This document shows, in pieces, positions 1-13,457 of a DNA stretch of 13,457 nt. Every line of letters starts with the position of its first letter. The stretch's first letter is position 1. The notes beneath the pieces are model-generated. The model saw only the letters and a list, made by a program, of their open reading frames with translations. It was not told where the DNA came from and searched no databases. The translations under genes were made by a program, and so were the position numbers. Source of the DNA: Candidatus Poseidoniaceae archaeon (GTDB lineage: Archaea; Thermoplasmatota; Poseidoniia; Poseidoniales; Poseidoniaceae); contig DUIP01000116.1 of assembly GCA_013330285.1 (NCBI GenBank), positions 5,075 through 18,531 on the forward strand, written 5' to 3'.

Positions 1-3000
1 CCATCTGTACTTTCAGTGACGATGTTGAATTCCACTGCAAAGTCGCCATCTTCGACATTGTCAGCAACAAATGCTGCGTCCTCGCCTGCAACTTCAATGT
101 GATACTCGAACCGTTGGCTTCCTGCTGCTTTGGCTCCGACATTGAACTCTGCGTTCGATGTGGATTGTGCGCCAATGCTGATGGTGACCGGGTCGTAAAC
201 CGTTCCACTGGATTGGTGAGTTAGAGTCACGATAACGCTGTCTGCGTCAAGGTAGCCAAAGTTCTCAACCGGTATTACAATCTTCGAATTTGGCACGTCA
301 GCAACTTGATCACTCGCTAGGATTGCTTGCGCAGGGTCAAAGCGTAGAGAAATCATGGCTTGCTGGAGTTCCACATCGAAGCTTTCGGTCGTCGTACCAT
401 CTTCACTGGTCACTGTAACGCTCACTGTCTTTGAATCGCCTTGCCATGTGCTTGGGGCGAAGACTGTGAAAGCCTGTGAACGTGTGTCATCCTTTGCAAT
501 GGTCACCACTGATTCCATTGGCGTGACTTCCCAGCCTTCTGGGATGTTGTCTGCCAGTTGAATCGTGAATGAGTCGTCTCCATTTCCAGTGTTCTGGAGC
601 ATGAAACTGAATTGGCGGTTTGATCCTGCAGCAATTCCGAGTTCAGTGACTTCTTCTGTAATCTCAAATCCAAAGGTCTGTGGAACTTGAACGTCCACTG
701 CGATTTCACTTGATTCACCGGTGCTTGTGCTTATTCGAACCTTGACCATGTGCGCATCTTCGAGGTTCCAAGCCTCAGATTGATTCGCCAAGTGAACTCG
801 TGCGGAAATCGTAGCGGTCTTGTCGACGCTGTCATCAGATGCATTCACACCGATTCCAAGAGTAAGGTCGTAGGATTCAACCCATGCAGTTCCGTTGTAG
901 AATTCAACGGACCAGAGCGCACTGTCAGGTGCAACACCAATGCTTCCTGTGACGGTGAAAACATCACTGATTTCGGTGCCTTCGTACGCAACATCGAGGT
1001 TGAACTCAATGGTCTTGTAAGCCTCTGCGAGAGGTTCAGCCATCAAATTCGTGTAGCTGCCATCGATGGTTGTAGCGTTGACGAGTGTGCTGTTCACCAT
1101 ACTCAAACTGCTGTCGGAATTTTCCGAACGTGTGTACGAGAGGGTCACAGGCGATCGGCCTTCGCCGACTGAAGTTCTGCTACCTGCAATGTAATCCATC
1201 TCAAGCATGTCATCATGCTGAATCGTTGTGAAGGTTGAATCGAAGTCGACATCATCGGCTGGCATGAGAAGAGTCAACGTTCCATCTGCTCCAATAGGCA
1301 TGTTCCATACAATGTCGTCACCAATCGAAATGGTCACTTCGACAGGATCTTGAATCATACTCGAACCGTTGTCATCTGAACCTGCGTGGTGTTCGCCAAG
1401 TGCAAAGTCGTTCCAGACTGTATCGAGGTCAATCCATCCGCCAAGCGCCATTTCCATATCGATAGAGGAGCCGGTTGCGATGGTTGCATCGAGGAGTCCA
1501 ACTGCGACACCGCCGCCGTTTTCGTCAGCATTTGCTTCAGACACAACAACAATCCATTCACCAGGAGCGATGGTTGCATCCCACGTCAAAACGTCGCCAT
1601 CCATGGTACCTGTGATGGTCACAGGATCTCGAACGGCGTCGAGTGTCGGGTAAAGCACGATTGTGGCGCCATCAAGTCGGGAGGCGTCGTTAATGTCTGT
1701 GACGTTACCAGAAACTGCGACGTTTCCAGCGATGACCTCAATGTCATGGGATTCAGGTTCGTTTTCGACTGGGTAAGCGCTTGAGTTGCTCAAGTTGTAT
1801 GATTCAGTGTCAAATCCATCCTTGCTTACTGTAACAGTGTAGTTGTCTTCAACAGGTACAAAGAGCGACCAAACACCAGAAGAATCAGTTGACACATTGG
1901 TGTCGACGCCTGAGCTTGCACCCAGCACTTCAACAAGGAAGCCTTCGACACCCTCAGCCACACCAGGTTCATCGTCTTCGTTCAAATCCCAGAAGACCTT
2001 TCCACCGATTTCAACTTCAAGATCTGCAGTGACAACACCAAGGTCTAGAGAGCCATTCACAGCATCATCGGTCGAGAATGGGGCGTTGGAAGTGTCCATC
2101 ATCCAGTGGCGTTGCGGAGCTGTTTCGTTAAGGAAAAGGCTCCATGTACCCGGCATCATCTGTTCACTTACCATACCAGTTTCATTGGACTTTGTCAAGG
2201 TGATGTTTCCATATCCATCGTGGCTTACTGCCGTGACGCGAATGTTGCTCATGTTGTTGCCGCTGGCAGTTTCTTGGAGTTGGAACATCACTTCGACTGT
2301 TTCCACAGTCGCATAGGAGAGGCCAGTCCTTAGGCTGGAATCTTCACCAACGATGAGTCCAGAGCGGAGAACCTCAGTGGCGTTTTCATTGGCGATAAAT
2401 GGTGCAACGATTGCGACCCAATCACCAGCAGGGACATAGCCTGAGAAGGTTCCATTCTCATCACTTTCAAGGTTGAAGTACAGGTCTTGGTCTGCCTCAT
2501 AGAGCATGAATTGCTTTTGGATCGCATCACCAGAAGCATTGGTGAGTGTTCCTGTGACCAAGTAATCGTTGCGCAATGGCATGTCCACTGCATCTTCAAT
2601 CGAGTCGAGTCCAATCACAAGTGGTTGCAAGGCAGTAACACCACCAAGGGCATAATCGCTTGCGTTTTCACTGTCAGGTGTTGTGAAGTTGAGGAGCACC
2701 GAGTAGGTACCTGGCTCGAGCGTGATGGTGATCACACCAGGAGAGGTGTAGTCATCAGCCGTGTAGTTCATCTGCGTACCATGGTTGTTGAGTGGCACAG
2801 CTGAGAAGTCTGGGCTCACAAGGGTTCCATTCTCAAAGGAGGCGTCATTACCAGCATCCATGAAGAACTGGAGAGTGACCTCTTGATGAGCTGGGTTTGC
2901 AAACAATTCAATCGGTGAAGGAGGTGTTCCACTTTCACGAGTGACGTTGAAGTTTTCAACCCCAGCAATGTTGAGTTCTGAATCAATAGCGTTGAAATCC

Positions 3001-6000
3001 CAGTTTCCATCTTGCAGGAAGAAGGTGAATTGTCCACCCTCTGTGATCTCTGTGCGCCATTCGAGTCCATCTTCATTGGTTGCAGTCAACGTTTGTGCTG
3101 CCCAACCTGGCACCAAATTGTCCCACAGGGAAGTGTTATCGTAAAGGTAAACAAATCCATTGGTCGATGTCGCTGGTGCGAGGTACATGATGCCCATGTC
3201 CATCTCAAATTCACCATTAAGAGCAATCAATTGACCGCCCGTGTAGGTGGAGAAGGTGCTGATGGCAGTCATATGGAAGTCTGCACCGTTTGGTAGACGC
3301 ATGCTGTAGTTTCCATCGACATCCGTCACGGTTGTGAATTCGAGATCGCCAGCCACAAAGTCAACGGTTAAGCCACTGGCAGGATCGCTTTCGGCCAACT
3401 TAATTTCATCTGTGCCCTGAGCCCACTGATCGTAGTTCGATGCATCCAAGTGGGTTCGTATTGTTCCATTCACCCATGTGGAGACAGCATAGTTGCCATC
3501 AAATTCGAGGTCTTCCTCTTCAAGTTCAAAGTGAGAGAAGAGAATGTATTCTCCGTCAGAATCATCCGACATGGTGTAAGCACCCATTGGTAATTCAATG
3601 TACACAACACCTGTTTCATCAGATGTAGCGTTAATTGGAGCCATCATTGAATCGTCGTTGGTAAAGGTCACCACTCGGTCAGCAACCGAAATCACAGGCG
3701 TCTGTGTTTCAGAGTCAGTCGGTGCAATAAGTTGAACCGTCACATCGTGCATTTCAGGCACGCCCATACCCATCGAGAAGTTCTCGGAGTCGTCACGAAC
3801 GAAGAGGCTCTCATTGACTTCATACCATCCATCGTTGTCAACGTCGACTCGATAGAAGTACTCGCCTGCAGCCAATGGACCATACGAGAAGCTACCGTTT
3901 TCATCTGTGATGATGTGTATAGCATACTCTTCACCAAGGCCTTCGTCGATCAGTTCAATGGTTTCATTGGCGTAGACTTCACCGAAGAAGTCTTCCAATA
4001 CATCTTCGAACAACGAACCAGGCATGGTCATCTCAAGATCGTATGAAGGGTTGATTCCAACATCAACAGCGCTAGGAAGGAGCACTTCTTTTCCGTTGTC
4101 AAGTTGAGCAATCATGTTGTACATGCCCGGAACGAGACCAGTAATGTAGAAGGAACCAGGTTGGACCATTGAGCCAGCGAAGTGACCCTTTCCGATGAAC
4201 AAACCAGTTCCATTGAGGGTACCTGTACCTTCGAATGATCCAGTTGCTTCGAATGTTGCATTGACAAGTTCTGTTCGTAGCGTCGAAATACCTTCAGAGG
4301 TCAAACGGCCATTTGCTGTTGCTTCACCATCAAGCATGTACACCGTCAAGTCACCACTGTTGTCCTTGACACAAAGTGTTTCGTTGGTTGGCATTGAATA
4401 GGTACCGTTTTCTTCGAAGCAGTCCATGACTGACTCGTTGGAAACCCAACTGGCTTCAAGAACACCAATACCGTTCCATGTACCATTACTTGTGTAGGTT
4501 CGCTTGTCAGCAATGGAGCGAGTGAACGTTCCTGTGAAGTCTTGAGCAAAGGCAACACCTTCGCTTTCGAAGGTACCGTTTTCGGTGAAGGTTGCCTCAC
4601 CGCTTCCTTGGAGGATTCGGCTTTCTTCAGAGGAGAAGGAACCGTTGGTGGTTGTCAAGGTGTAGTTGTCTGTCATCGACCAAATGCTTCGGAGAACAAA
4701 GGTTGTGTCCACAAGTGGATCACCGTTGAATGATTCAGCACCAGACCATGTGACGAGTCCAGAAACACCGCTGCTTTGCACATCGACGTCCATAGCCTCG
4801 GTGACTGCGACCTTACGGTCTGCTTGCTCGGCTGTCACGTTCATTTGTGAAGCACCAAGCCAAGTCATGTTAGCGACCTGACCGAGAATTGCTGTAATGT
4901 CGTTGATTTGACGATCGGTGTTGGTTTCGGTGAGAATATCAGCCAATCCATCCACATAAGCCCCTGTTCTGAGACTGTCTTGAGCGACGGTTGGATTGTA
5001 TTCACCTGCAAATGCAGAGACACGGATGCGTCCAGCAGGAGCATCGAAACTCCACTTGCCTTCGTCATCAGCATCGACATAGCCGATTGGCACCCAATAG
5101 GTATCTGGGTCCAAATCTTCTGCACCTTCGCCAGAGAAGGCGTCCCGCTCAATAAGCAAACGAACACCAGGAAGACCCTGTCCATTGTCACTCATGGACA
5201 CTTGTCCAGAGATTTCAGCACCAGAGTAGTACTTCATGATCTTGACATAGGTGTTGGTGTTTCCGATGGTGACGTTTGGATCGTCATTGTACCAGTTGCT
5301 GATCACGAAATGGTTGGACATAGCACCCGGAAGTGGTAATGCTTGACTCAATGAACTGCCAGGGCTACCTTGTTGACCAAAGTGCTGAGCTGGCTGTGGA
5401 TTCGAAGAGCCTGCATCAATGCCTAGTGTTGAAGCACCGTAGCCAACGTAGGTGTTGGCAAGCATGGTGCTGAAGAACTGTGGATTGTGATCGACGCGCA
5501 CATCCTGAACCTGCAATGGGTCAATGTCAGCCCCTGCTTGTTGGTTGAGGAAATCTTCTGTAATTGCTGCGTCGACTTCTTCTCGAGTCATTTCATCTTG
5601 GAATTCTCCACGGGTCGTTTCGTAGACTTCATCCATGAAGGTACCAATGTCTTGACCGCTAAGGATTGTAGGTGCACCAAAGATACCCATTGGTTGTCCT
5701 TGGTTGTAGCCCATATCTGCAGTGTATCGTCCAGCACGAGGGTAAAGTCGACTGTCGATTGCAAAGTATCGAATCTCGTGGTTACGCTCCACAGTTTCAC
5801 CAGGTGCGCCGAGGTAATCTTGCACTTGGTAGGTGTCAATGTTGTTGATGAGGTCATCGTAAAGATCGACGATTTGTGATTCGTCGAGCACGTTTGTTAA
5901 CAACTGCACCGTGAGAGCGAGACGTGCGTTCTTTCGGTGGATGTGGGTTGAAACAGAGTTGAACTCCTCGATCAAATCTTGTGTGTACCAATAATCGTTA

Positions 6001-9000
6001 ATGATGTAGTGTGTGGTTGTTTTAGAGGTATCTTGGCCAGAACGAATCGAGTTGTTGAATGAAACCATTGCTTCGCCCTTCACGGTCCAATCTGTGCCTT
6101 GACAGGTGAGAGAGAACTGTTCAGTACATTCAACAATTTCTTTGTCATCATAGATTCGGTACACCATGGTCGAGGTGTCGAAGGCACCATCAGTTTGGTG
6201 GTATCCTTGTGCCATGACCATGTCTCTGTTGGTTTGAATCACTTGGAAACTGTTGTCGATGACGAATGCTTTCAGTTCATCTGTGTCAGCGTTGGCATTG
6301 ATCTTCTCAAAGATCTCGTATGCACCATCAGCGTGTGAGAGATGGTTTTGAACGATGTTTGAGTATCCATTGGTGTAAGCAAGGTCGCCTGTTCGCGCCC
6401 TGTTGTAGGAAATATCACCTTCAGCAAGTTGCCAGATGAACATCGAAACAAGATCGGCTTCAGATTGAGCCAAAAGCATGTTTCCTGTTGCAGGAATACC
6501 GGACTGGAAGTTGTCAGAAACAGATGGGTGTTCTCCAGAAGCAAGTGCTTGGAACCCGTAGTCCCACCAAGATACAAATGCAGGTCGCTCGGAATATGGT
6601 TCGTTAGTGTCCTGTTGAGCAAGCCATTCATAGGCGTTGTTCCAACTGTTATCATTGAATCCTGAACCCATTGTACCTAGGTACCAGTCACCGTCATAGG
6701 GACTGTCATCAAGAATTGAGAATCCTGCAATCTCTTGACGAAGAATATCTGGAATGAGGTTGAATATGGTCTCATCAAGTTCATCTTCTGCAGTCACCGT
6801 TGATGGAATAGCAGCGTCCAAACCATAGGTTGCCTGTTGCCCAAAGAGCATGATCATCACGAGCAGAATTGCAGAGAAGTTGGGTGTTCTCCAGACGACT
6901 TTGCGTGCTCCACGAATTCGATCTTCTGGCGTACGGATGCCGTACTTCTTCCATGAACGAACCATACCACTCCAGTTTGCCCACTTCCACAAGGAGACAA
7001 TACCCCATGCGCCAAGCACGGCCATTGCTGGTGTAGCGTTGAACATGAAACGAGCAGCTGACCAAGCCATGTAGGACGCTGCGAGAATCCACACACCAAA
7101 GACAAGGCTTGTGTGCTTTCGCTCACGCATACCAGCGATGAGCGCAAGCAATCCCATAACGAGGGCCAAAAGGAACGTAATCGGTCCGAATTGTGCAAAG
7201 AGTTGGCCACGATCGGTTGCGTTTGCTTCCGCAACTGTACCGAAAATCTTGGATTTGGTGAAGTAGCCTCCACCTGTGAACAGCACATCCCATGCGTTGC
7301 TCAATTCGAAGAACTTGAGCACGTAAAGTATGCCGAAGAACACGGTGGCTCCAGCAACGAGGACGCCCAATACCAAGAGCCAGGGTTTGTCTCGGAATCC
7401 CGTGGTAATGAAAGCAAGGGTCAATGTGAACACAATGATGAACAAGAATGGCTGAAGGCCAGTTCCGTCAGTAACCAAGTTGAGTTGCGGGTGAGCGTAG
7501 AACGGCAACGCCATCAGAAGGTTGACCGCAAGCATGGAAATGAACAAGACGTTCAGAGTGGTCGAATCTCTTCGGCGGAACATGTTCAATGCAACTTGCA
7601 AGGCATATGCTAGGAAGAGAATTGATGGTCCAACTACGAATCCTTTCCAACCGAGAGAAACCACACCAAATGAAACACCAGCAAGAACTGCGTATGACAA
7701 CGCAGCAGTTCGCTGATGAGCGACGGCACTGAAGGAATCGATCAAGGTTGAAATTGAAGGCGATGTGTTGCGCAACAATCGGTCGCTTCCTGCATACTTC
7801 ACAGCCTTGAGCCAATACATGAAGCCCATCGTCAAGAACAGCATGATGAACGCATCGTGGTCGGCCAGAGCGAAGGTCGAATGCGAAACGTGAGCTGGCA
7901 TGAAGGCGATGAGCCAAGCAGCAACTACGCCTGCCTTTTCGTTGACGTGCTCCCGTGCGATTGCAGCGACTGGAAGAATGGTAAGTGCTCCATACACTGC
8001 AGGAAGGGCCAGCATGGACCACCAGACTGCATCCTCAGAACCAACGAAGGGTTCGAGGAGCGTGGCAAGCACAGCAATCGACCAGGTGAACAACGGAGGT
8101 CGAGGATTGATACCACCGATTGGGTAGTACCGATCTGCATCGACGATCATGTGAGCGTTGTTAGCAAGAATGTAATCGACGACTCGCTTCATGTACCATG
8201 GGTCAGAACCACCGGTCATGTCCCAAGTGTTGGTGCCAAGGGAGTTCATCGAAGGGATGACGTACCACTGCATTCGAATAACGAAACCAAAGAAGAACGC
8301 CATACCGACCATGATGGTGGCCCAATGAGCATTCCAGAATTGACGAGCACCTGATGGCTCAAATTCACTTCGATTTGACCATCCGCCCCACTTGTCATGC
8401 GTACCAATCACGTAGATGATGGCGCAGATGAAGAATGTGAACGCAAGCCAAATCAAAGCGCCCCAGCTTCCATCGAAAGCATCGTTTTGGATCATACCGG
8501 ATTCGTACCACGAAGATACGAGGTAAAGAGCCCACATTGAGCCAATGAACATTGAACGGGTGAACCATCGCTCAGAAGCCATACCAGCCACAATCATGGC
8601 CACCATACCGGTGAAGAAGGCATTCCAGAATCCAAAGTAGCCATGGTATCCAGCAAGGTCTTGATTGGCTGCAACAGCACGGTCGCTGTATGGTCCAAAG
8701 AGGTTGATGATGGACGATTCATTGCCCATGAGGTGGTTAAAGTGCCAAAGGCTACCAATATGGGCAAGGGCCCAAACAAGCAAACCAATCTGAAGCGGTA
8801 GCGTGGATTTGTTCCAAGCACCATCGCCGTCGGTAATGTGGCTGAACCATCCCTTTTCCGATGAAGGAGAAAGGACGCCACGAGCCAAGACCGAAAAGAG
8901 AATACCGAGCACTGTGAACAGCATCATGTAGCTGAAGAACTGGTAGCCAACTGCTCCACGGTATGCATCGAGAACACCAATGGCTTGTCCAGATTCAAGG

Positions 9001-9473
9001 ACCAGCCCATCGGTTGCAATGATGCTCAAGTCGGTTGCGATGTGACCGGCGGCAACGAAACCAAGTTCGATACCGACCGCTGCAAACATCAACACGTTGG
9101 CCCATTCGAAAGAGCCACGCATGACGAGAGCATGGACGCCAAACATCACGACAAAGAACAGGAGCGCAGTCACTGCATCAAGACCGAACATGCAAACGAC
9201 TTGCGATCCAATCAAAGCAACAACCAAAGAAACGAGGGAAAGGGTTGAGTTCGAAAAAGAGACAGTGCCGGATGCTTTGAGCATTCGTGGGGCGAGACCA
9301 AGCGAAGCCGCCGCAAGGACGACAACCATAGGTGCCATGTTGTCTAGGTTGAGATCGAAGTTCATTCCAACGATCTGTGTTGCTGCGAGCGCAAGAAGCA
9401 CTGCAAGGGGGGCAATAAGCCAACCAAGCAGAGGTGCTGGCGCTGGGCGCATTTCTGGGTTTTTCGTTTCCAT
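1..9473 (-). CDS. aglB: Giant STT3/AglB-type oligosaccharyltransferase with long extracellular extension (3' end beyond window)
   Basis: This integral membrane enzyme transfers a lipid-linked glycan to Asn in N-x-S/T sequons of exported proteins. The frame is open for 3157 codons from ATG 9473 to the left edge, and the stop lies outside. An in-frame TGA (9485-9483) sits just upstream and GAGGG lies 6 nt before the ATG, so the start is firm. STT3 hallmarks seen: an acidic site in SDPWYMKR (D424), a second acidic pair in ADHDAF (D538, D540), a TVAE motif (746-749, the archaeal TIxE motif), WWDYG (969-973) followed by a DNFQSGI stretch, and the AglB-type 'VKIMKYYSGA' segment ending near 1419. 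Typical archaeal STT3 proteins are about 600-1000 residues and have WWDYG near residue 500-550. Here about 378 extra N-terminal residues shift it, and more than 1700 residues follow the usual end. Reading frame was rechecked at seven widely spaced motifs and is constant. The STT3 family call is certain; the role of the extra parts is unknown. Confidence 0.95.
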   Translation of the reverse strand, partial: METKNPEMRPAPAPLLGWLIAPLAVLLALAATQIVGMNFDLNLDNMAPMVVVLAAASLGLAPRMLKASGTVSFSNSTLSLVSLVVALIGSQVVCMFGLDAVTALLFFVVMFGVHALVMRGSFEWANVLMFAAVGIELGFVAAGHIATDLSIIATDGLVLESGQAIGVLDAYRGAVGYQFFSYMMLFTVLGILFSVLARGVLSPSSEKGWFSHITDGDGAWNKSTLPLQIGLLVWALAHIGSLWHFNHLMGNESSIINLFGPYSDRAVAANQDLAGYHGYFGFWNAFFTGMVAMIVAGMASERWFTRSMFIGSMWALYLVSSWYESGMIQNDAFDGSWGALIWLAFTFFICAIIYVIGTHDKWGGWSNRSEFEPSGARQFWNAHWATIMVGMAFFFGFVIRMQWYVIPSMNSLGTNTWDMTGGSDPWYMKRVVDYILANNAHMIVDADRYYPIGGINPRPPLFTWSIAVLATLLEPFVGSEDAVWWSMLALPAVYGALTILPVAAIAREHVNEKAGVVAAWLIAFMPAHVSHSTFALADHDAFIMLFLTMGFMYWLKAVKYAGSDRLLRNTSPSISTLIDSFSAVAHQRTAALSYAVLAGVSFGVVSLGWKGFVVGPSILFLAYALQVALNMFRRRDSTTLNVLFISMLAVNLLMALPFYAHPQLNLVTDGTGLQPFLFIIVFTLTLAFITTGFRDKPWLLVLGVLVAGATVFFGILYVLKFFELSNAWDVLFTGGGYFTKSKIFGTVAEANATDRGQLFAQFGPITFLLALVMGLLALIAGMRERKHTSLVFGVWILAASYMAWSAARFMFNATPAMAVLGAWGIVSLWKWANWSGMVRSWKKYGIRTPEDRIRGARKVVWRTPNFSAILLVMIMLFGQQATYGLDAAIPSTVTAEDELDETIFNLIPDILRQEIAGFSILDDSPYDGDWYLGTMGSGFNDNSWNNAYEWLAQQDTNEPYSERPAFVSWWDYGFQALASGEHPSVSDNFQSGIPATGNMLLAQSEADLVSMFIWQLAEGDISYNRARTGDLAYTNGYSNIVQNHLSHADGAYEIFEKINANADTDELKAFVIDNSFQVIQTNRDMVMAQGYHQTDGAFDTSTMVYRIYDDKEIVECTEQFSLTCQGTDWTVKGEAMVSFNNSIRSGQDTSKTTTHYIINDYWYTQDLIEEFNSVSTHIHRKNARLALTVQLLTNVLDESQIVDLYDDLINNIDTYQVQDYLGAPGETVERNHEIRYFAIDSRLYPRAGRYTADMGYNQGQPMGIFGAPTILSGQDIGTFMDEVYETTRGEFQDEMTREEVDAAITEDFLNQQAGADIDPLQVQDVRVDHNPQFFSTMLANTYVGYGASTLGIDAGSSNPQPAQHFGQQGSPGSSLSQALPLPGAMSNHFVISNWYNDDPNVTIGNTNTYVKIMKYYSGAEISGQVSMSDNGQGLPGVRLLIERDAFSGEGAEDLDPDTYWVPIGYVDADDEGKWSFDAPAGRIRVSAFAGEYNPTVAQDSLRTGAYVDGLADILTETNTDRQINDITAILGQVANMTWLGASQMNVTAEQADRKVAVTEAMDVDVQSSGVSGLVTWSGAESFNGDPLVDTTFVLRSIWSMTDNYTLTTTNGSFSSEESRILQGSGEATFTENGTFESEGVAFAQDFTGTFTRSIADKRTYTSNGTWNGIGVLEASWVSNESVMDCFEENGTYSMPTNETLCVKDNSGDLTVYMLDGEATANGRLTSEGISTLRTELVNATFEATGSFEGTGTLNGTGLFIGKGHFAGSMVQPGSFYITGLVPGMYNMIAQLDNGKEVLLPSAVDVGINPSYDLEMTMPGSLFEDVLEDFFGEVYANETIELIDEGLGEEYAIHIITDENGSFSYGPLAAGEYFYRVDVDNDGWYEVNESLFVRDDSENFSMGMGVPEMHDVTVQLIAPTDSETQTPVISVADRVVTFTNDDSMMAPINATSDETGVVYIELPMGAYTMSDDSDGEYILFSHFELEEEDLEFDGNYAVSTWVNGTIRTHLDASNYDQWAQGTDEIKLAESDPASGLTVDFVAGDLEFTTVTDVDGNYSMRLPNGADFHMTAISTFSTYTGGQLIALNGEFEMDMGIMYLAPATSTNGFVYLYDNTSLWDNLVPGWAAQTLTATNEDGLEWRTEITEGGQFTFFLQDGNWDFNAIDSELNIAGVENFNVTRESGTPPSPIELFANPAHQEVTLQFFMDAGNDASFENGTLVSPDFSAVPLNNHGTQMNYTADDYTSPGVITITLEPGTYSVLLNFTTPDSENASDYALGGVTALQPLVIGLDSIEDAVDMPLRNDYLVTGTLTNASGDAIQKQFMLYEADQDLYFNLESDENGTFSGYVPAGDWVAIVAPFIANENATEVLRSGLIVGEDSSLRTGLSYATVETVEVMFQLQETASGNNMSNIRVTAVSHDGYGNITLTKSNETGMVSEQMMPGTWSLFLNETAPQRHWMMDTSNAPFSTDDAVNGSLDLGVVTADLEVEIGGKVFWDLNEDDEPGVAEGVEGFLVEVLGASSGVDTNVSTDSSGVWSLFVPVEDNYTVTVSKDGFDTESYNLSNSSAYPVENEPESHDIEVIAGNVAVSGNVTDINDASRLDGATIVLYPTLDAVRDPVTITGTMDGDVLTWDATIAPGEWIVVVSEANADENGGGVAVGLLDATIATGSSIDMEMALGGWIDLDTVWNDFALGEHHAGSDDNGSSMIQDPVEVTISIGDDIVWNMPIGADGTLTLLMPADDVDFDSTFTTIQHDDMLEMDYIAGSRTSVGEGRSPVTLSYTRSENSDSSLSMVNSTLVNATTIDGSYTNLMAEPLAEAYKTIEFNLDVAYEGTEISDVFTVTGSIGVAPDSALWSVEFYNGTAWVESYDLTLGIGVNASDDSVDKTATISARVHLANQSEAWNLEDAHMVKVRISTSTGESSEIAVDVQVPQTFGFEITEEVTELGIAAGSNRQFSFMLQNTGNGDDSFTIQLADNIPEGWEVTPMESVVTIAKDDTRSQAFTVFAPSTWQGDSKTVSVTVTSEDGTTTESFDVELQQAMISLRFDPAQAILASDQVADVPNSKIVIPVENFGYLDADSVIVTLTHQSSGTVYDPVTISIGAQSTSNAEFNVGAKAAGSQRFEYHIEVAGEDAAFVADNVEDGDFAVEFNIVTESTD
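384..686 (-). other. NEW3/CARDB-like Ig-fold domain in the STT3 extension
   Basis: Residues about 2930-3030 contain the strand-turn pattern FSFMLQNTGNGDDSFTIQL, then PEGWEV and a T-V-x-V-T strand. This is the usual signature of NEW3-type (NPCBM-associated) Ig-like domains in archaeal surface proteins. A second, CARDB-like unit follows at about 3040-3125, with IVIPVENFGYLDADSVIV. In such proteins these units tend to be membrane-proximal, so a C-terminal anchor helix may lie just outside the window. Confidence 0.65.
1809..2021 (-). other. SdrD_B-like domain in the STT3 extension
   Basis: Residues about 2485-2555 begin GGKVFWDLNEDDEPG and continue with a GVEGFLVEVLG strand and a DSSGVWSLFVP turn. 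This is the pattern of SdrD_B-like prealbumin-fold domains (G-x-V-F-x-D-x-N-x-D...G-V-x-x-V-x-V-x-L), whose acidic loop often binds calcium. The Asp/Asn/Glu residues of that loop are present here. Calcium binding is inferred. Confidence 0.65.
4170..4241 (-). repeat. Four consecutive six-residue repeats in the STT3 extension
   Basis: Residues 1745-1768 read as four hexads: GSFEGT, GTLNGT, GLFIGK, GHFAGS. Each begins with Gly, has a large hydrophobic residue at position 3 and a second Gly at position 5. The hydrophobic phase extends back to F1741. The pattern suggests regular short strands and turns. Looser versions occur upstream, around 1600-1680 (GSGEATF, NGTFESEG, NGTWNGIG). The DNA copies have diverged, so this is a protein-level repeat. 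Confidence 0.6.
5223..6815 (-). other. Extracytoplasmic C-terminal domain of STT3 with WWDYG motif
   Basis: This part encodes residues 887-1417, the soluble domain that binds the +2 Ser/Thr of the sequon. WWDYG is at 969-973 (bases 6555-6569). It is followed by the usual context, SDNFQSGI, then a small-residue/Leu stretch and AQSEAD. A candidate for the second Ser/Thr-binding signature, DxxKxxx(M/I), is D1065-E-L-K1068-A-F-V-I1072, 96 residues after WWDYG. I am not sure it is the true equivalent. C1116 and C1124 could form a disulfide. The domain ends with the beta strand KIMKYYSGAEISG, which matches the usual end of AglB proteins and marks the beginning of the extension. Confidence 0.85.
6816..8339 (-). 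other. STT3 catalytic membrane core (GT66)
   Basis: This part encodes residues 379-886, with about thirteen membrane segments as in known STT3/AglB/PglB structures. The first extracytoplasmic loop carries D424 in the GGSDPWY context. The second carries D538 and D540 in LADHDAF. These are the positions of the metal-coordinating acidic residues in the family. The long loop EL5 carries T746-V-A-E749, where Glu is expected to contact the acceptor Asn. A late helix contains ARFMFNATP, typical of the family's last helices. The final helix (about 865-883) leads into the soluble domain. Confidence 0.9.
8340..9473 (-). other. Region encoding an extra N-terminal multi-helix membrane domain of the STT3 protein
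   Basis: This stretch encodes residues 1-378, before the canonical first STT3 helix (about 379-402, containing FFFGFVIRM). I see about nine or ten hydrophobic segments, near residues 12-35, 44-62, 76-97, 101-120, 125-148, 173-196, 222-240, 270-295 and two more before 370. They are separated by short loops, with larger hydrophilic stretches around 148-170 and 240-270. I recognise no family or catalytic motif. Ordinary AglB/STT3 begins directly with the helix that precedes the first acidic motif, so this is an added module. It could be a subunit-like scaffold or a glycolipid-handling domain; nothing in the sequence decides. Confidence 0.7.
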
Positions 9474-9657: not shown

Positions 9658-10917
9658 TCACAACGCTCGATGGCCAATGTCAGTCCTGAAGTGGCTGCCT
9701 TCAAGTTCGATGGCTTCGATCATGGCATAGGCCCGTTCAGCGGCAATCGACAATGTGAGCCCCAGTGCGGTACAAGTCAGCACTCGACCACCACTTGAAA
9801 TCAAGGTCCCTTCTTCATCAAAGGCGGTCCCTGCATGATTAATCCATGCCGTATTCATAGGCATTGGTAGCCCTGTGATGGCTCTTCCTTTGATCGGTGA
9901 GGCCGGATAACCTTCAGAGGCAAGAACAACAGTGAGGGCATGAGTGTCATGGAACTCAGCATCGTAATCAGAGAGGCCATCCGTTGCTGATGCATGGAGC
10001 AGTTCATACACATCGCTCTTGATCAATGGCAATGTGATTTGGCATTCTGGATCGCCAAACCTTACATTGAATTCTACAACACTTGGGGCACCATTTTCTG
10101 GAATCATCAAGCCAACATACAGCACCCCACGGTAGGGAACTGGTTGGCTTGAAAGATAGGCGTGCATTGGTTTGACAATGGTTTCAACCGTTCTTGAATG
10201 CACATCAGGGGTGACAACTGGAGCAGGACAGTAGGCGCCCATGCCACCTGTATTCGGCCCTTCGTCGCCGTTGTAGGCACGTTTGTGATCTTGACTCGGA
10301 GGAAGACAGACAAAACCAGAGCCGTCCATCACCACAAGCATACTTGCTTCCTCACCTTGGAGAAATGCTTCGAGCAGCACCTTACCGTCGCTTTGAATGG
10401 ACGATTCGATGAAGGCTTGTGCTTCGCTTCGATCGCTTGTAACGACAACGCCTTTGCCCCCTGCCAAGACGTCACGTTTGACCACCCAAGGCTGGCCTTG
10501 GAAGTCATCCAAAGCGGATTGTATATCGGAGTTGGCATCGAGTACATGGAAATCTGCGGTCGGCACTCCAGCGATTCTCATGACGTTTTTTGCATGGAGT
10601 TTCGACCCCTCGAGTTCAGCAAGTGCTTGTACAGGCCCAAAGCAGGGAATGCCGATGGCTGAGAGTTTGTCTGCTAATGCATCACAAAGCGGTGCTTCAG
10701 GACCAACGACAACAAGAGAAGCATCGATGCGTTTTGCCAGTTCGACAAGGGAGGAAAGATCTGATGCTGAAATCGCATGATTTGTGGCAAGTTCCGAGGT
10801 GCCACCGTTTCCAGGTGCGCAATGCACTGCTTCAACATGACTCGATGAGGACAAGGCCATGCACAGAGCATGCTCTCTTCCGCCACCGCCAACAACCAAA
10901 ACTGTCCTGTCCGCCAT
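9658..10917 (-). CDS. purD: Phosphoribosylamine-glycine ligase (GAR synthetase), PurD
   Basis: This cytosolic ATP-grasp enzyme joins glycine to 5-phosphoribosylamine to give GAR, the second committed step of purine synthesis. At 419 residues it is full length for the family. Seen (numbering from Met at 10917): N-terminal VVGGGGREHA (8-17); PEAPLCDALAD near 73-83; FGP at 93-95 followed by LEGSK; ATP-grasp loop LAGGKG (151-156); QDHKR (209-213) and GPNTGGMGAY (220-229); the metal-binding region EFNVRFGDPE (282-291); and a C-terminal R-TDIGHRAL ending. An in-frame ATG nine codons upstream (10944) is possible. I prefer 10917 because homologues begin right at the glycine-rich strand, and an ATTATG sequence about 27 nt upstream could serve a leaderless start. 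It is divergent from carS and followed on the same strand by the STT3 gene after a 184-nt gap, so it is probably a separate transcript. Confidence 0.95.
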   Translation of the reverse strand: MADRTVLVVGGGGREHALCMALSSSSHVEAVHCAPGNGGTSELATNHAISASDLSSLVELAKRIDASLVVVGPEAPLCDALADKLSAIGIPCFGPVQALAELEGSKLHAKNVMRIAGVPTADFHVLDANSDIQSALDDFQGQPWVVKRDVLAGGKGVVVTSDRSEAQAFIESSIQSDGKVLLEAFLQGEEASMLVVMDGSGFVCLPPSQDHKRAYNGDEGPNTGGMGAYCPAPVVTPDVHSRTVETIVKPMHAYLSSQPVPYRGVLYVGLMIPENGAPSVVEFNVRFGDPECQITLPLIKSDVYELLHASATDGLSDYDAEFHDTHALTVVLASEGYPASPIKGRAITGLPMPMNTAWINHAGTAFDEEGTLISSGGRVLTCTALGLTLSIAAERAYAMIEAIELEGSHFRTDIGHRAL

Positions 10918-10964
10918 GCCCAACAACGGTCGGCTTCGGCACATAATCCCATCGTGCCCCCTTT

Positions 10965-10982
10965 CTCAATCAGAGGATTGAG
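10965..10982. repeat. Perfect 7-bp inverted repeat in the purD-carS divergent intergenic region
   Basis: CTCAATC (10965-10971) and GATTGAG (10976-10982) are exact reverse complements separated by AGAG. The repeat lies 48 nt upstream of the preferred purD start and 79 nt upstream of the carS start. It could be an operator for a dimeric regulator or a transcript hairpin; neither is shown. Confidence 0.5.
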
Positions 10983-11031
10983 TACAGCAAACGGGGCAGG
11001 CTTCAAAGGCCTTCGTTGACCAACAGCCACC

Positions 11032-11064
11032 ATGCCTACCGTTCTCTTGGAGGGTTTGATGTGA
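11032..11064 (+). other. Mini-ORF of ten codons overlapping the carS start
   Basis: ATG at 11032 opens a frame encoding MPTVLLEGLM and ends with TGA at 11062-11064. The stop overlaps the carS GTG (11061-11063) by two bases, and the frame spans the carS Shine-Dalgarno. An in-frame stop lies just upstream (11017-11019). No ribosome binding site is evident before its ATG. It could be a leader peptide coupled to carS, or chance. Confidence 0.25.
11049..11054 (+). promoter_or_regulatory. Shine-Dalgarno that sets the carS GTG start
   Basis: GGAGGG followed by a 6-nt spacer precedes GTG 11061. This is the strongest ribosome binding site in the window. It rules for the GTG over an in-frame TTG at 11016, which has no such sequence before it. 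Confidence 0.8.
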
Positions 11065-11711
11065 ATTTCCTCATCTTGTGCCTCATGTGTTTGTGGCTTT
11101 ACTTACCTGGGTTTTTGGCAAATACATTCGCTATGATGTGGGGTAAATGGCTTCCAAAAACAGGTTATGGCCCGTGGCCAATTGATGGGGGCCGCACGCT
11201 AAAAGACGGCAACCGAATGTTGGGGGATGGCAAAACATGGAATGGTTTGATCGGCGGCTCCCTCACTTCAGGCTTGCTTTGCATCCTCATGGTGGTCATG
11301 ACCAATGATGGCAGCGGAGCAGGGGCCCTCGATGACACAACCATCTTTGCTTCACCTCTTTCGGGGGCAGGCGATGCTTGGTTTTCAGTCGGTGGGACCA
11401 TGATGAGCGCCTTTGTATTGGGTACATTCCTCGGTTTTATGTGCCTGGTAGGCGACAGTACGGGCTCCTTCTTCAAGCGCCGTCGTGGATTGAAAAGGGA
11501 AGGCGACATTTCCTCAAAAGCGCCACTTTTGGACACGTTGCCGTTTGCAATTTCGGTGTTCCTTGCAGGACAAATCTTCCTCGAATCTTCATGGCTTGCC
11601 GATGAAGCATTACGCCTTCCAATGCTGATCCTTGTGCTGATTACCCCAGTGCTCCATCGAAGCTTCAACCTCATTGGTTATGCCATTGGATGGAAGGATG
11701 TCCCTTACTGA
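11061..11711 (+). CDS. carS: CDP-archaeol synthase (CTP:2,3-di-O-geranylgeranylglycerol-1-phosphate cytidylyltransferase), CarS
   Basis: This membrane enzyme uses CTP and Mg2+ to activate digeranylgeranylglycerol phosphate to CDP-archaeol, the branch point to archaeal polar lipids. The protein has 216 residues from the GTG start, slightly longer than the usual 170-180. Diagnostic motifs seen: LPGFLANTFAMMWG (15-28) at the end of helix 1; then PIDGGR (40-45) and KDGNRMLGDGKTWNG (48-62), the Asp-rich cytidylyltransferase loop; a VGDSTGSFFKRRRGLKREGD segment with APLLD after it; and the C-terminal HRSFNLIGYAIGWKDVPY. About five membrane segments are visible. Extra length lies in the loop after helix 2 (about 82-105, Gly/Ala/Asp-rich). 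Its stop is 40 nt before the next start on the same strand, but the next gene has its own TATA-like element. The presence of this gene is strong evidence for an archaeal host. Confidence 0.95.
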   Translation: MNFLILCLMCLWLYLPGFLANTFAMMWGKWLPKTGYGPWPIDGGRTLKDGNRMLGDGKTWNGLIGGSLTSGLLCILMVVMTNDGSGAGALDDTTIFASPLSGAGDAWFSVGGTMMSAFVLGTFLGFMCLVGDSTGSFFKRRRGLKREGDISSKAPLLDTLPFAISVFLAGQIFLESSWLADEALRLPMLILVLITPVLHRSFNLIGYAIGWKDVPY

Positions 11712-11723
11712 CGGAGCGAACTC

Positions 11724-11728
11724 TATAT
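11724..11728 (+). promoter_or_regulatory. TATA box for a leaderless transcript
   Basis: CTATATCC in the 40-nt gap after carS places TATAT centred 26 nt before the ATG at 11752. This is the normal archaeal TATA-to-start-site distance, so transcription should begin at or next to the ATG. No Shine-Dalgarno is present, which agrees with a leaderless mRNA. Confidence 0.6.
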
Positions 11729-11751
11729 CCGACTGTTGGCTCCATCTTACC

Positions 11752-13457
11752 ATGCGAACCGCTGTATCCTTAGTATTCCTGCTCTTGATGGCCCCACTTT
11801 TGGGTGGCCTCTCATCTGCTGAAATGACAACCGATGAAACCTCAATCACCGTCACAGGCACTGAAACATGGGATGCCTCCAACCCGATTGATCTCGACCT
11901 CACAATCACAGATGGGGCCTCATTATTCATTGACGATAGCACAACAGTAGTGCAAGGTGTAACCATCACCGTCGAAGAAGGTGCGAGCCTCACCGTGAAC
12001 GGAGATTTACTCGGGGATGATTACGACGCTGGCCTTTTGATTTACAATGATACTGAACTCAATCTCAACTTCGGTGATGTAGCAGAAACAGGACAGGTTC
12101 GAATCAACCTTGATCACGTCATTCCAGAGACGGCGATGTTCAACATCACCATCGGTAACGAAACCCGAGATGCTGTTGGCAGTGATTATGTCGATATCCC
12201 AGCAGCCCTCAATGGAACACCGCTTGTTGTTGAATTCTATGTCTACTACTTCTTTGCAACACAGGTGACCAGCGTACAAGCACTCCACTCTGGTTCGAGC
12301 GGCAGCGACACGGTCAACGCTGAGGATCTTGACCATACAGGTGGCAGCCTGAAGTGGAACTCTGCTGCCTTTACCCTCAACGCCCATGGCTCTGTTTCAA
12401 TCAACAACGCCACCATCGGCGGTGCAGACCTCACCTGTGCAGGCTCATGTTCCATGAATGGAGCAACTGCGACTGGAAGTGCGCCGATTCATGTCACTGA
12501 CTCAGGAAGCTTGTCGGTTGATGAATCAATGATTCAAGGTTCGAGAACTGACGAAGACATCATTGTTCACGATACTGGTGACATCACCTACACTGAAAGC
12601 AGCGGAACAGGCGGTTTTACCGACGCTTGGATTCGGTTGCTTTCCCAAAGGGCACTGCACACCAATTCTGGAAACATCACTGTCCATGCCACCGGTTTGG
12701 GCTACTATGGCAGCACAGTTGACAACATCACGAATGAAGCAGGTCATGTGAATTACGCCCTCAGTGAACATGCTCGAATCGTCGAATGGATGGATGGTGA
12801 TGGTGTGTATCACAAAGAAGATGCAGAAATTCTCCTCACGCTCTCTTCGAGTTGGGGCAATTATCAAACAACCATTGTCGCACCAATGGTCCCACTCGAA
12901 ACTGCTGCTGTACCGTTACCTTACATCGACGTGATCTCCATTGACATGGAAGACAACACCGGCTATACCAACATGGGACTAAGCGGTGATGTGGTCATCG
13001 AAAACAGCGGCGAGGCAAGTGTTTCAGGCGTTAGTTTCTGGTGTTATGTGGGTGATGAGTTGCAGGACACTTCGCAATTGACCGTCTCGCTCGAACCAGG
13101 TGAAACCAAGACCATTTATGTCACATGGCGAACAAGTTCGGCTGGTGTCGAGTCACTCGAATGCAAACCATTGATCCCCAATGTTTTGAAATCAATTACC
13201 TCTGATGTGTCGAACACCAACGGGGCCACATCCCAAGAAGTATCATGGTCAGTGGCTGAAGAAACCGAGGACCAGCCATGGATCATCTTCGCCATGCTTC
13301 TCGCTGTTGTTCTTGCGGGTGCATGGGTGGTCAGCAATCAGGCGACGAAGGCAGCCTTAAGAAACACAAAAGAGGAAGTTGAAGAGAGCGATTCTATGGA
13401 AAAATCCTACCTCGAAGATAACGAAGTGGAAACAGAAGAAGAGTCTGAAGATGATGC
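11752..13457 (+). CDS. Secreted, C-terminally membrane-anchored surface protein (partial at right edge)
   Basis: No family was recognised for the full protein. The visible 568 residues begin with a Sec signal peptide (positive R2, a hydrophobic core VSLVFLLLMAPLLGG, probable cleavage after SSA near residue 23). Residues 24-385 are beta-rich and polar, with short repeated strands (GASLFIDDS, GASLTVNGD, GSVSINNAT, GSLSVDESM) that suggest a right-handed beta-helix or similar solenoid. C229 and C233 may pair. Residues about 388-495 look like a CARDB Ig-like domain (VIENSGEASVSG, then SLEPGETKTIYVTW) with C431 and C471 as a likely disulfide. One membrane helix (about 509-528) follows, then a cytoplasmic tail rich in Glu and Asp that runs off the edge. 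There are about seven N-x-S/T sequons, so it is a plausible substrate of the neighbouring STT3. No enzymatic motif is seen. Confidence 0.85.
   Translation, partial: MRTAVSLVFLLLMAPLLGGLSSAEMTTDETSITVTGTETWDASNPIDLDLTITDGASLFIDDSTTVVQGVTITVEEGASLTVNGDLLGDDYDAGLLIYNDTELNLNFGDVAETGQVRINLDHVIPETAMFNITIGNETRDAVGSDYVDIPAALNGTPLVVEFYVYYFFATQVTSVQALHSGSSGSDTVNAEDLDHTGGSLKWNSAAFTLNAHGSVSINNATIGGADLTCAGSCSMNGATATGSAPIHVTDSGSLSVDESMIQGSRTDEDIIVHDTGDITYTESSGTGGFTDAWIRLLSQRALHTNSGNITVHATGLGYYGSTVDNITNEAGHVNYALSEHARIVEWMDGDGVYHKEDAEILLTLSSSWGNYQTTIVAPMVPLETAAVPLPYIDVISIDMEDNTGYTNMGLSGDVVIENSGEASVSGVSFWCYVGDELQDTSQLTVSLEPGETKTIYVTWRTSSAGVESLECKPLIPNVLKSITSDVSNTNGATSQEVSWSVAEETEDQPWIIFAMLLAVVLAGAWVVSNQATKAALRNTKEEVEESDSMEKSYLEDNEVETEEESEDD

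Follow-up and report, generated by a model that had tools for sequence, protein, structure and literature searches.

We analyzed a 13,457 nt stretch of DNA (the window) from a Candidatus Poseidoniaceae archaeon (assembly GCA_013330285.1, contig DUIP01000116.1, positions 5,075 to 18,531), which contains a very long gene for a predicted oligosaccharyltransferase (OST). The open reading frame lies on the minus strand at window positions 3..9473 and runs for 3,157 codons without a stop, being still open at the left edge; in the host genome (1.6 Mb, 88% complete) it is located on contig C207. PF02516 matches residues 422-818 with 49.9 bits against a cut-off of 24.5, and the STT3 motifs are found as GGSD at residue 421, ADHD at 537, TVAE at 746 and WWDYG at 969. 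The key motif residues (acidic, TIXE-type and WWDYG) are invariant across 22 aligned cores from the phylum. The core profile and the motifs together identify the window protein as a predicted STT3/AglB-type OST, which would transfer glycans to N-x-S/T. The archaeosortase-A-associated OST family TIGR04154 matched residues 387-1006 with 178 bits, under its 450-bit cut-off, and the protein was not assigned to this family. It is the sole STT3 found in its own genome, where no second copy of the tail described below was found, and each Poseidoniales genome with a match in a phylum-wide search showed one PF02516 match among the matches listed.

The conserved STT3 core spans residues 381-1010, and the rest of the globular domain reaches residue ~1420. 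The core is preceded by a multi-helix membrane extension (residues 1-380; 8334..9473, minus strand as for all parts of the gene), which was delimited by hydropathy, shows lower conservation than the core (0.55 vs 0.75) and has no Pfam match at E≤1. Of 21 fetched genes that do not belong to the order, 19 have their core start at residue 1-81 and the other two at 242-243. The STT3/AglB membrane core (residues 381-880; 6834..8333) holds the GGSD, ADHD and TVAE motifs, its inner boundary being approximate. It is followed by the catalytic globular domain (residues 881-1420; 5214..6833), which contains WWDYG at 969-973, SDNFQSG at 986-992 and few N-x-S/T sequons. Beyond residue ~1420, the same stop-free frame continues for 1,737 residues up to the window edge, so the fusion of an STT3 core to a tail of more than 1700 residues, proposed in a preliminary description of this DNA, is borne out.

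The tail can be divided into four parts. The first stretch (residues 1421-1585; 4719..5213) begins with a part, residues 1421-1534, whose conservation is close to that of the enzyme and which has no sequons in the window protein. It is followed by a long-strand module (residues 1586-1770; 4164..4718) with beta strands of up to 29 residues in the structure model, where residues ~1626-1754 are modelled as long strands; most of residues 1490-1767 lie outside the tail-profile matches (>15 bits) to genes from other orders. Pfam, the models and fold matches all indicate that residues 1771-2933 (675..4163) form a rod of tandem prealbumin/CarboxypepD_reg/Ig-like beta domains, and the window ends within the last Ig-like domains (residues 2934-3157; 3..674), which are devoid of sequons. 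CarboxypepD_reg scored 49.2 bits against a cut-off of 32.3, while the CARDB, NEW3 and FixG_C types, the ones matched by the last domains, stayed under their own cut-offs. The choice-of-anchor T family reached 40.3 bits and not its curated score of 70, and no S-layer family was among the Pfam matches of the OST. We modelled residues 1005-2196 (mean pLDDT 70, pTM 0.35, with stretches <50) and 2098-3157 (mean pLDDT 88, pTM 0.41), and both models consist of tandem beta-sandwich domains, about 15-17 in the tail by our reading of the strand strings. The fold matches (Foldseek, VIA) of the first model were prealbumin/CNA-B proteins and pilins, and those of the second were generic Ig-like arrays. When the sequence of the window tail alone was compared with solved structures, four entries matched at E≤1: three were designed dTor proteins and one was a nanobody. 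The tail thus belongs with the tandem beta-sandwich arrays of prealbumin, CNA-B and Ig-like proteins, and the beta domains of the preliminary description are found in the profiles and the models alike.

The end of the chain is hidden by a run of N directly left of the window, beyond which the sequence reads GSGAKRF followed by a stop. The closest database protein (P0001; 3,189 aa, 96% identical in the tail) ends in a hydrophobic helix and then the same GSGAKRF, and this agrees with the true C-terminus that had been sought to the left. As judged from P0001, the window OST ends shortly past the window at a predicted full length of about 3,190 residues, and the C-terminal transmembrane helix seen in relatives would lie just outside. 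By hydropathy, a C-terminal hydrophobic helix with a short basic end is present in all 106 homologues longer than 3,100 aa (among the best 120 of 278 matches), whose lengths are 3,154-3,227 aa with a median of 3,185, and likewise in 19 of 19 genes picked from the order. Because relatives carry this helix, the tail is predicted to be an extracellular loop anchored in the membrane at both ends, and the short basic end would lie inside the cell by the positive-inside rule. The extracellular location assumed in the preliminary description agrees with this topology, but its free, projecting tail is ruled out by the C-terminal anchor of the relatives.

We searched for the fusion across the order, which was taken as Poseidoniales (the homologues carry source names such as 'Candidatus Poseidoniales archaeon' for P0119 and 'Candidatus Thermoplasmatota archaeon' for P0080), and obtained matches in 188 of 193 genomes. 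Open frames of at least 3,100 aa, and up to 3,335 aa, were present in 106 of the 150 genome matches listed. The other 44 frames are shorter, and 15 of the 20 that we examined stop at or near the end of the fetched contig. Frame changes were located near residue 1555, within the tail, in G002 (L251), a single-contig genome of the order, where the change may be a sequencing error or a real break; others lie between residues 2616 and 2731 in two further short frames and between ~190 and 393 in one; in G165, all 3,157 residues align in one frame despite a listed open frame of 1,942 aa. None of the 20 is broken by a stop or frameshift at the core-tail junction (~1420), the place set beforehand as decisive for the fusion, and on these 20 of the 44 shorter frames split proteins were rejected. 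In an alignment of 126 proteins, the occupancy of the tail is 0.91-1.0 (means per 50 own residues), which indicates that tail domains are hardly gained or lost; this near-constant domain content counts against a loosely repeated stalk. Beyond residue 1800, most of the rod falls short of the core in conservation. By sequence, both the length and the domain order of the OST appear nearly constant across the order, and the fusion, initially seen in one organism, is not peculiar to it.

The preliminary description did not raise what we consider the best clue to the role of the tail, its dense N-glycosylation sequons. All 43 sequons of the in-window tail fall into a zone of residues 1535-2899 (777..4871), compared with 17.5±3.6 in shuffled sequences, and none of 2,000 shuffles reached 43. 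The reverse motif occurs 19 times vs 17.2 expected, that is, at chance level. We considered that the excess might be a by-product of N-G-S/T in beta turns, and this was rejected in part, as the other sequons stay enriched (31 vs 15.9) when N-G-S/T is left out. The number of tail sequons exceeds that of the own shuffles in 19 of 19 fetched relatives in the order. Sequon Asn residues are more conserved than the other Asn residues of the tail (0.56 vs 0.33), and the Ser/Thr at +2 is usually kept wherever the Asn is kept; for 20 of the 43 sites, half or more of the weighted homologues carry the sequon, and for 11 at least 80% do. Across the 126 proteins (weighted), residues 1500-2899 contain a mean of 42 sequons vs 16 reverse motifs, residues 2900-3199 are at background (1.9 vs 2.6) although they are also Ig-like, and residues 900-1499 have 1.5 vs 5.5.

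To compare the OST with other proteins of the same cell, we sampled 400, 336 and 200 kb from three genomes of the order, which represent three genera and two families. The OST segment ranked first of 198, 172 and 100 segments, with z scores of 6.9, 5.8 and 2.8, respectively. The other exported-like proteins of these genomes had 293 vs 241, 246 vs 201 and 90 vs 96 sequons, that is, at most ~1.2-fold enrichment. As far as tested, the OST of this order stands out in sequons from the other exported proteins, and the explanation that the excess is a general property of exported proteins was set aside for the three genomes, yet it holds strongly in G223, a genome from outside the order. Near the OST of G022, about 13 kb away, a 1,917-aa exported-like protein with a TSP3 repeat match (L087:10380-16130, minus strand) is sequon-enriched as well (z 3.8), and G025 has an enriched protein of 1,896 aa (z 3.1) of like size at a like distance.

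The genes around the OST are largely shared within the order. A block of purD and CarS (CDP-archaeol synthase) lies upstream at window 9658-11711; all 19 loci of the order have purD upstream and on the strand of the OST, and 18 of them have CarS upstream. Of 101 loci outside the order, 29 have purD on the other strand and downstream of the OST; Methanomassiliicoccales are among them. In 17 of 19 loci of the order, the OST is immediately followed on its own strand by an S8 subtilase frame, with gaps of 4-185 bases and with four frames overlapping the OST frame end; the subtilase to the left of the window (L002 3352-4575) has a hydrophobic N-terminal stretch. A beta-helix protein is encoded downstream in 15 of 19 loci. 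Several of the misses in these counts are contig ends. Near the OST block, an exported-like CARDB protein of ~590 aa is encoded on the plus strand (window 11674-13455), and 16 of the 19 loci of the order have a relative of it upstream of the OST and on the opposite strand.

Shorter versions of the tailed OST, ~2,070-2,740 aa by their frames, are carried by many other Thermoplasmatota. The phylum-wide search with PF02516 matched 244 of 292 genomes, and among the matches listed we grouped the frames into classes of ~1,160-1,430, 2,080-2,190 and 2,300-2,750 aa and, for the order, 3,100-3,330 aa; the remaining listed frames are near 900-1,300 aa or seemingly cut. We fetched 40 loci, chosen by hand mostly for having long and complete frames, with two short ones added, and hence not a random sample, and a C-terminal helix was present in 18 of the 21 genes from outside the order, one being cut by the contig and the two short ones being without helix. 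These two (L071, L072) are STT3 proteins that end in a few CarboxypepD_reg-like domains, and might represent an earlier or a reduced stage of the tail. A larger set of named loci outside the order comprises the 80 that scored best among 578 for similarity to an Aciduliprofundum-type core; 57 of these 80 have the C-end within the contig. The distance from WWDxG to the end is 1,497-1,701 residues in 54 of these 57, and a C-terminal helix was scored in 53; one of the four misses, L146, was just under the threshold. The tail profile of the order matched in parts 1228-1490, 1767-2590 and 2910-3145 in the same order, most clearly in L054, L061, L062 and L066; its matches to the other loci were partial or out of register, with Aciduliprofundum-type (DHVE2) tails matching weakly. 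Sequons are enriched as well in the tails from 56 loci of other Thermoplasmatota (1,112 vs 582), 37 of them with z >2. In L065 and L067, from two other Thermoplasmatota families, the OST C-terminus is a VPGF-hydrophobic-basic stretch, which we take to resemble the PGF-CTERM archaeosortase signal; these OSTs might accordingly be sorted or lipid-anchored.

The reading we favor, to which we assign a probability of roughly 0.5, is that the OST glycosylates itself and that a canopy coated with glycans covers its active site. Since translation completes the catalytic domain ahead of the rod, the rod would emerge from the translocon beside an enzyme already able to act. It would most simply be glycosylated in cis during its emergence, and glycosylation in trans on a neighboring OST is equally compatible. 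Once coated with glycans, the rod might arch above the active site and act as a fixed canopy, shielding the enzyme and retaining emerging acceptor chains nearby. Alternatively, a double-anchored rod of fixed length could coat the cell. We regard glycosylation of the tail by the OST itself as the likelier part, and the canopy role of the rod as tentative. The OST may even be the main acceptor of its lineage; the full form of this proposal, in which the Poseidoniales OST is its own principal substrate and dozens of loop sites glycosylated at the translocon build a canopy that is the main N-glycoprotein of the cell, seems to us doubtful.

Several observations weigh against this reading. The tail sequons are potential glycosylation sites only, as predicted by sequence. 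The inter-domain geometry of the models is unreliable (pTM 0.35 and 0.41), so we infer the arch over the active site rather than take it from them. A scarcity of sequons near the active site is a weak argument: the window protein has no clear depletion (2 vs 3.8 expected at residues 1011-1420 and 3 vs 2.8 at 381-1010), and the reverse control is inflated at 900-999 by the conserved SDN and TGN (986-997), the counts without this bin being 1.4 vs 3.3. Moreover, in 54 loci of other Thermoplasmatota, sequons are not scarce in the catalytic region (334 vs 123 reverse). The enrichment in one of the three sampled genomes, G036, is modest (z 2.8), the within-genome control covers only 200-400 kb per genome, and in G223 exported proteins are generally enriched (206 vs 110), with the OST second of 229. 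A second OST could be missing from view as the window genome is only 88% complete, and several genomes gave two core matches in the order-wide search.

Other readings of the tail were weighed against the same data. The tail might act as a binding scaffold for acceptors, nascent or folded, or for neighboring parts of the translocon, its glycans serving merely as protection from proteases; we consider this unlikely, yet it ranks first among the alternatives. Residues 1421-1534, conserved nearly at the level of the enzyme and free of sequons in the window protein, are what a contact surface would look like, and surface proteins often carry tandem beta domains of this kind, but no partner is known and conservation over most of the rod past residue 1800 is below that of the core. 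Rather improbable is the idea that the OST itself, in many copies, is an S-layer-like or structural coat protein whose glycosylated rod makes up the cell surface. Sequon-dense rods of beta domains would suit such a coat, and PMC9723583 names an oligosaccharyltransferase among the more highly transcribed genes in one set of coastal Poseidoniales metatranscriptomes; the gene named there may, however, be another than that of the window OST, no S-layer family is among the Pfam matches, and a many-helix enzyme would be a costly coat protein. The roles suggested in the preliminary description, a structural envelope component or a device that holds acceptor proteins or the cell wall close to the active site, stay among the candidates, and direct evidence for the holding of acceptors or cell wall was not found.

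We give little credence to a NOMO-like rod fused in cis that does the job of the luminal rods associated with the eukaryotic translocon, such as spacing and access gating. Human NOMO2 (9c7v_B) is the best solved match of three tail profiles from three groups (E 2.1e-6, 2.6e-6 and 4.3e-27), and NOMO is described as a ~27 nm rod with Ig folds (PMC8327139). On the other hand, in a control limited to single sequences, NOMO2 was matched better by two archaeal proteins that are not OSTs but share the domain type (1.9e-5 and 2.9e-6) than by one single tail (0.021), the window tail alone had no NOMO2 match at E≤1, and one stretch of the profile matches several NOMO domains, so that the match is not collinear. 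In addition, OST is reported as undetectable in a NOMO-containing translocon purified from human cells (PMC7505659). A specific kinship with NOMO is not upheld, since the controls match better and the match is non-collinear, and we treat NOMO as an analogue only. Equally improbable in our view is that the neighboring S8 subtilase cuts the tail off the OST to release a separate surface glycoprotein: the peptidase frame is directly downstream in 17 of 19 loci, but no cleavage site is known, a neighborhood alone shows no substrate, and L041 has no S8 match in 4.6 kb downstream (L045 ends just past the OST). An assembly chimera or annotation artefact could be suspected from the gap at the C-terminal end in the window genome and from the frame change in the tail of G002. 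The 106 homologues of near-constant length among the best 120 of 278 matches, together with the 106 of 150 listed genome frames of at least 3,100 aa, already refute it for the fusion, and we give it next to no weight.

In bacteria and archaea, the known OSTs are compact enzymes of a single subunit, and in eukaryotes they are multi-subunit complexes. The OSTs of 2,000-3,300 residues predicted to loop back into the membrane in many Thermoplasmatota would represent a third layout, and they provide a case, open to testing, in which the body of the enzyme itself resembles one of its most strongly selected acceptors. The carriers include widespread marine plankton, and the shorter version occurs in Aciduliprofundum and Methanomassiliicoccales relatives. 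Some of these relatives have been cultured, which makes experiments possible. Our literature searches found no description of long-tailed or looped OSTs among the titles and abstract openings listed; a referee comment printed with PMC4973528 mentions that over-long sequences had been discarded in that survey.

The window OST shares its membrane core, its globular domain and the acidic, TIXE-type and WWDYG motifs with Archaeoglobus fulgidus AglB-L (868 aa) and other STT3/AglB/PglB proteins (lengths and motifs of AglB as given in PMC3703281 and PMC8342417). AglB and PglB end with the globular domain, built of CC, IS, P1 and P2 units, whereas the window OST adds ~1,740 residues and, as seen in its relatives, a C-terminal helix, besides a further ~380 N-terminal residues. 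The long STT3 proteins of other Thermoplasmatota, such as Aciduliprofundum/DHVE2 and Methanomassiliicoccales, follow the same plan of STT3, globular domain, beta domains and C-terminal helix. They differ in length (~2,070-2,740 aa), mostly in the lack of a large N-terminal extension and, in the one genome of this kind that was sampled (G223), in that other exported proteins are sequon-enriched too. Tandem prealbumin-like domains also make up the CNA-B/SpaA surface proteins and pilins of Gram-positive bacteria, such as Bacillus anthracis TIE, which Foldseek ranked highest for the first tail model; these proteins are anchored to the wall by sortase and, unlike the window OST, include no enzyme. 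NOMO of the BOS complex has a C-terminal membrane helix, and both NOMO and the tail are extracytoplasmic rods of prealbumin/Ig-like domains ending in such a helix, but NOMO is a separate non-enzyme protein and the likeness is common to other archaeal proteins of the tail's domain type. A precedent for an OST catalytic subunit that itself carries a sequon motif is the eukaryotic STT3, whose motif is glycosylated. This conserved motif, DNXTZNX[T/S] (PMC8342417), is located in the globular domain, whereas the window OST reads SDNFQSG at residues 986-992 and has its 43 sequons in the tail.

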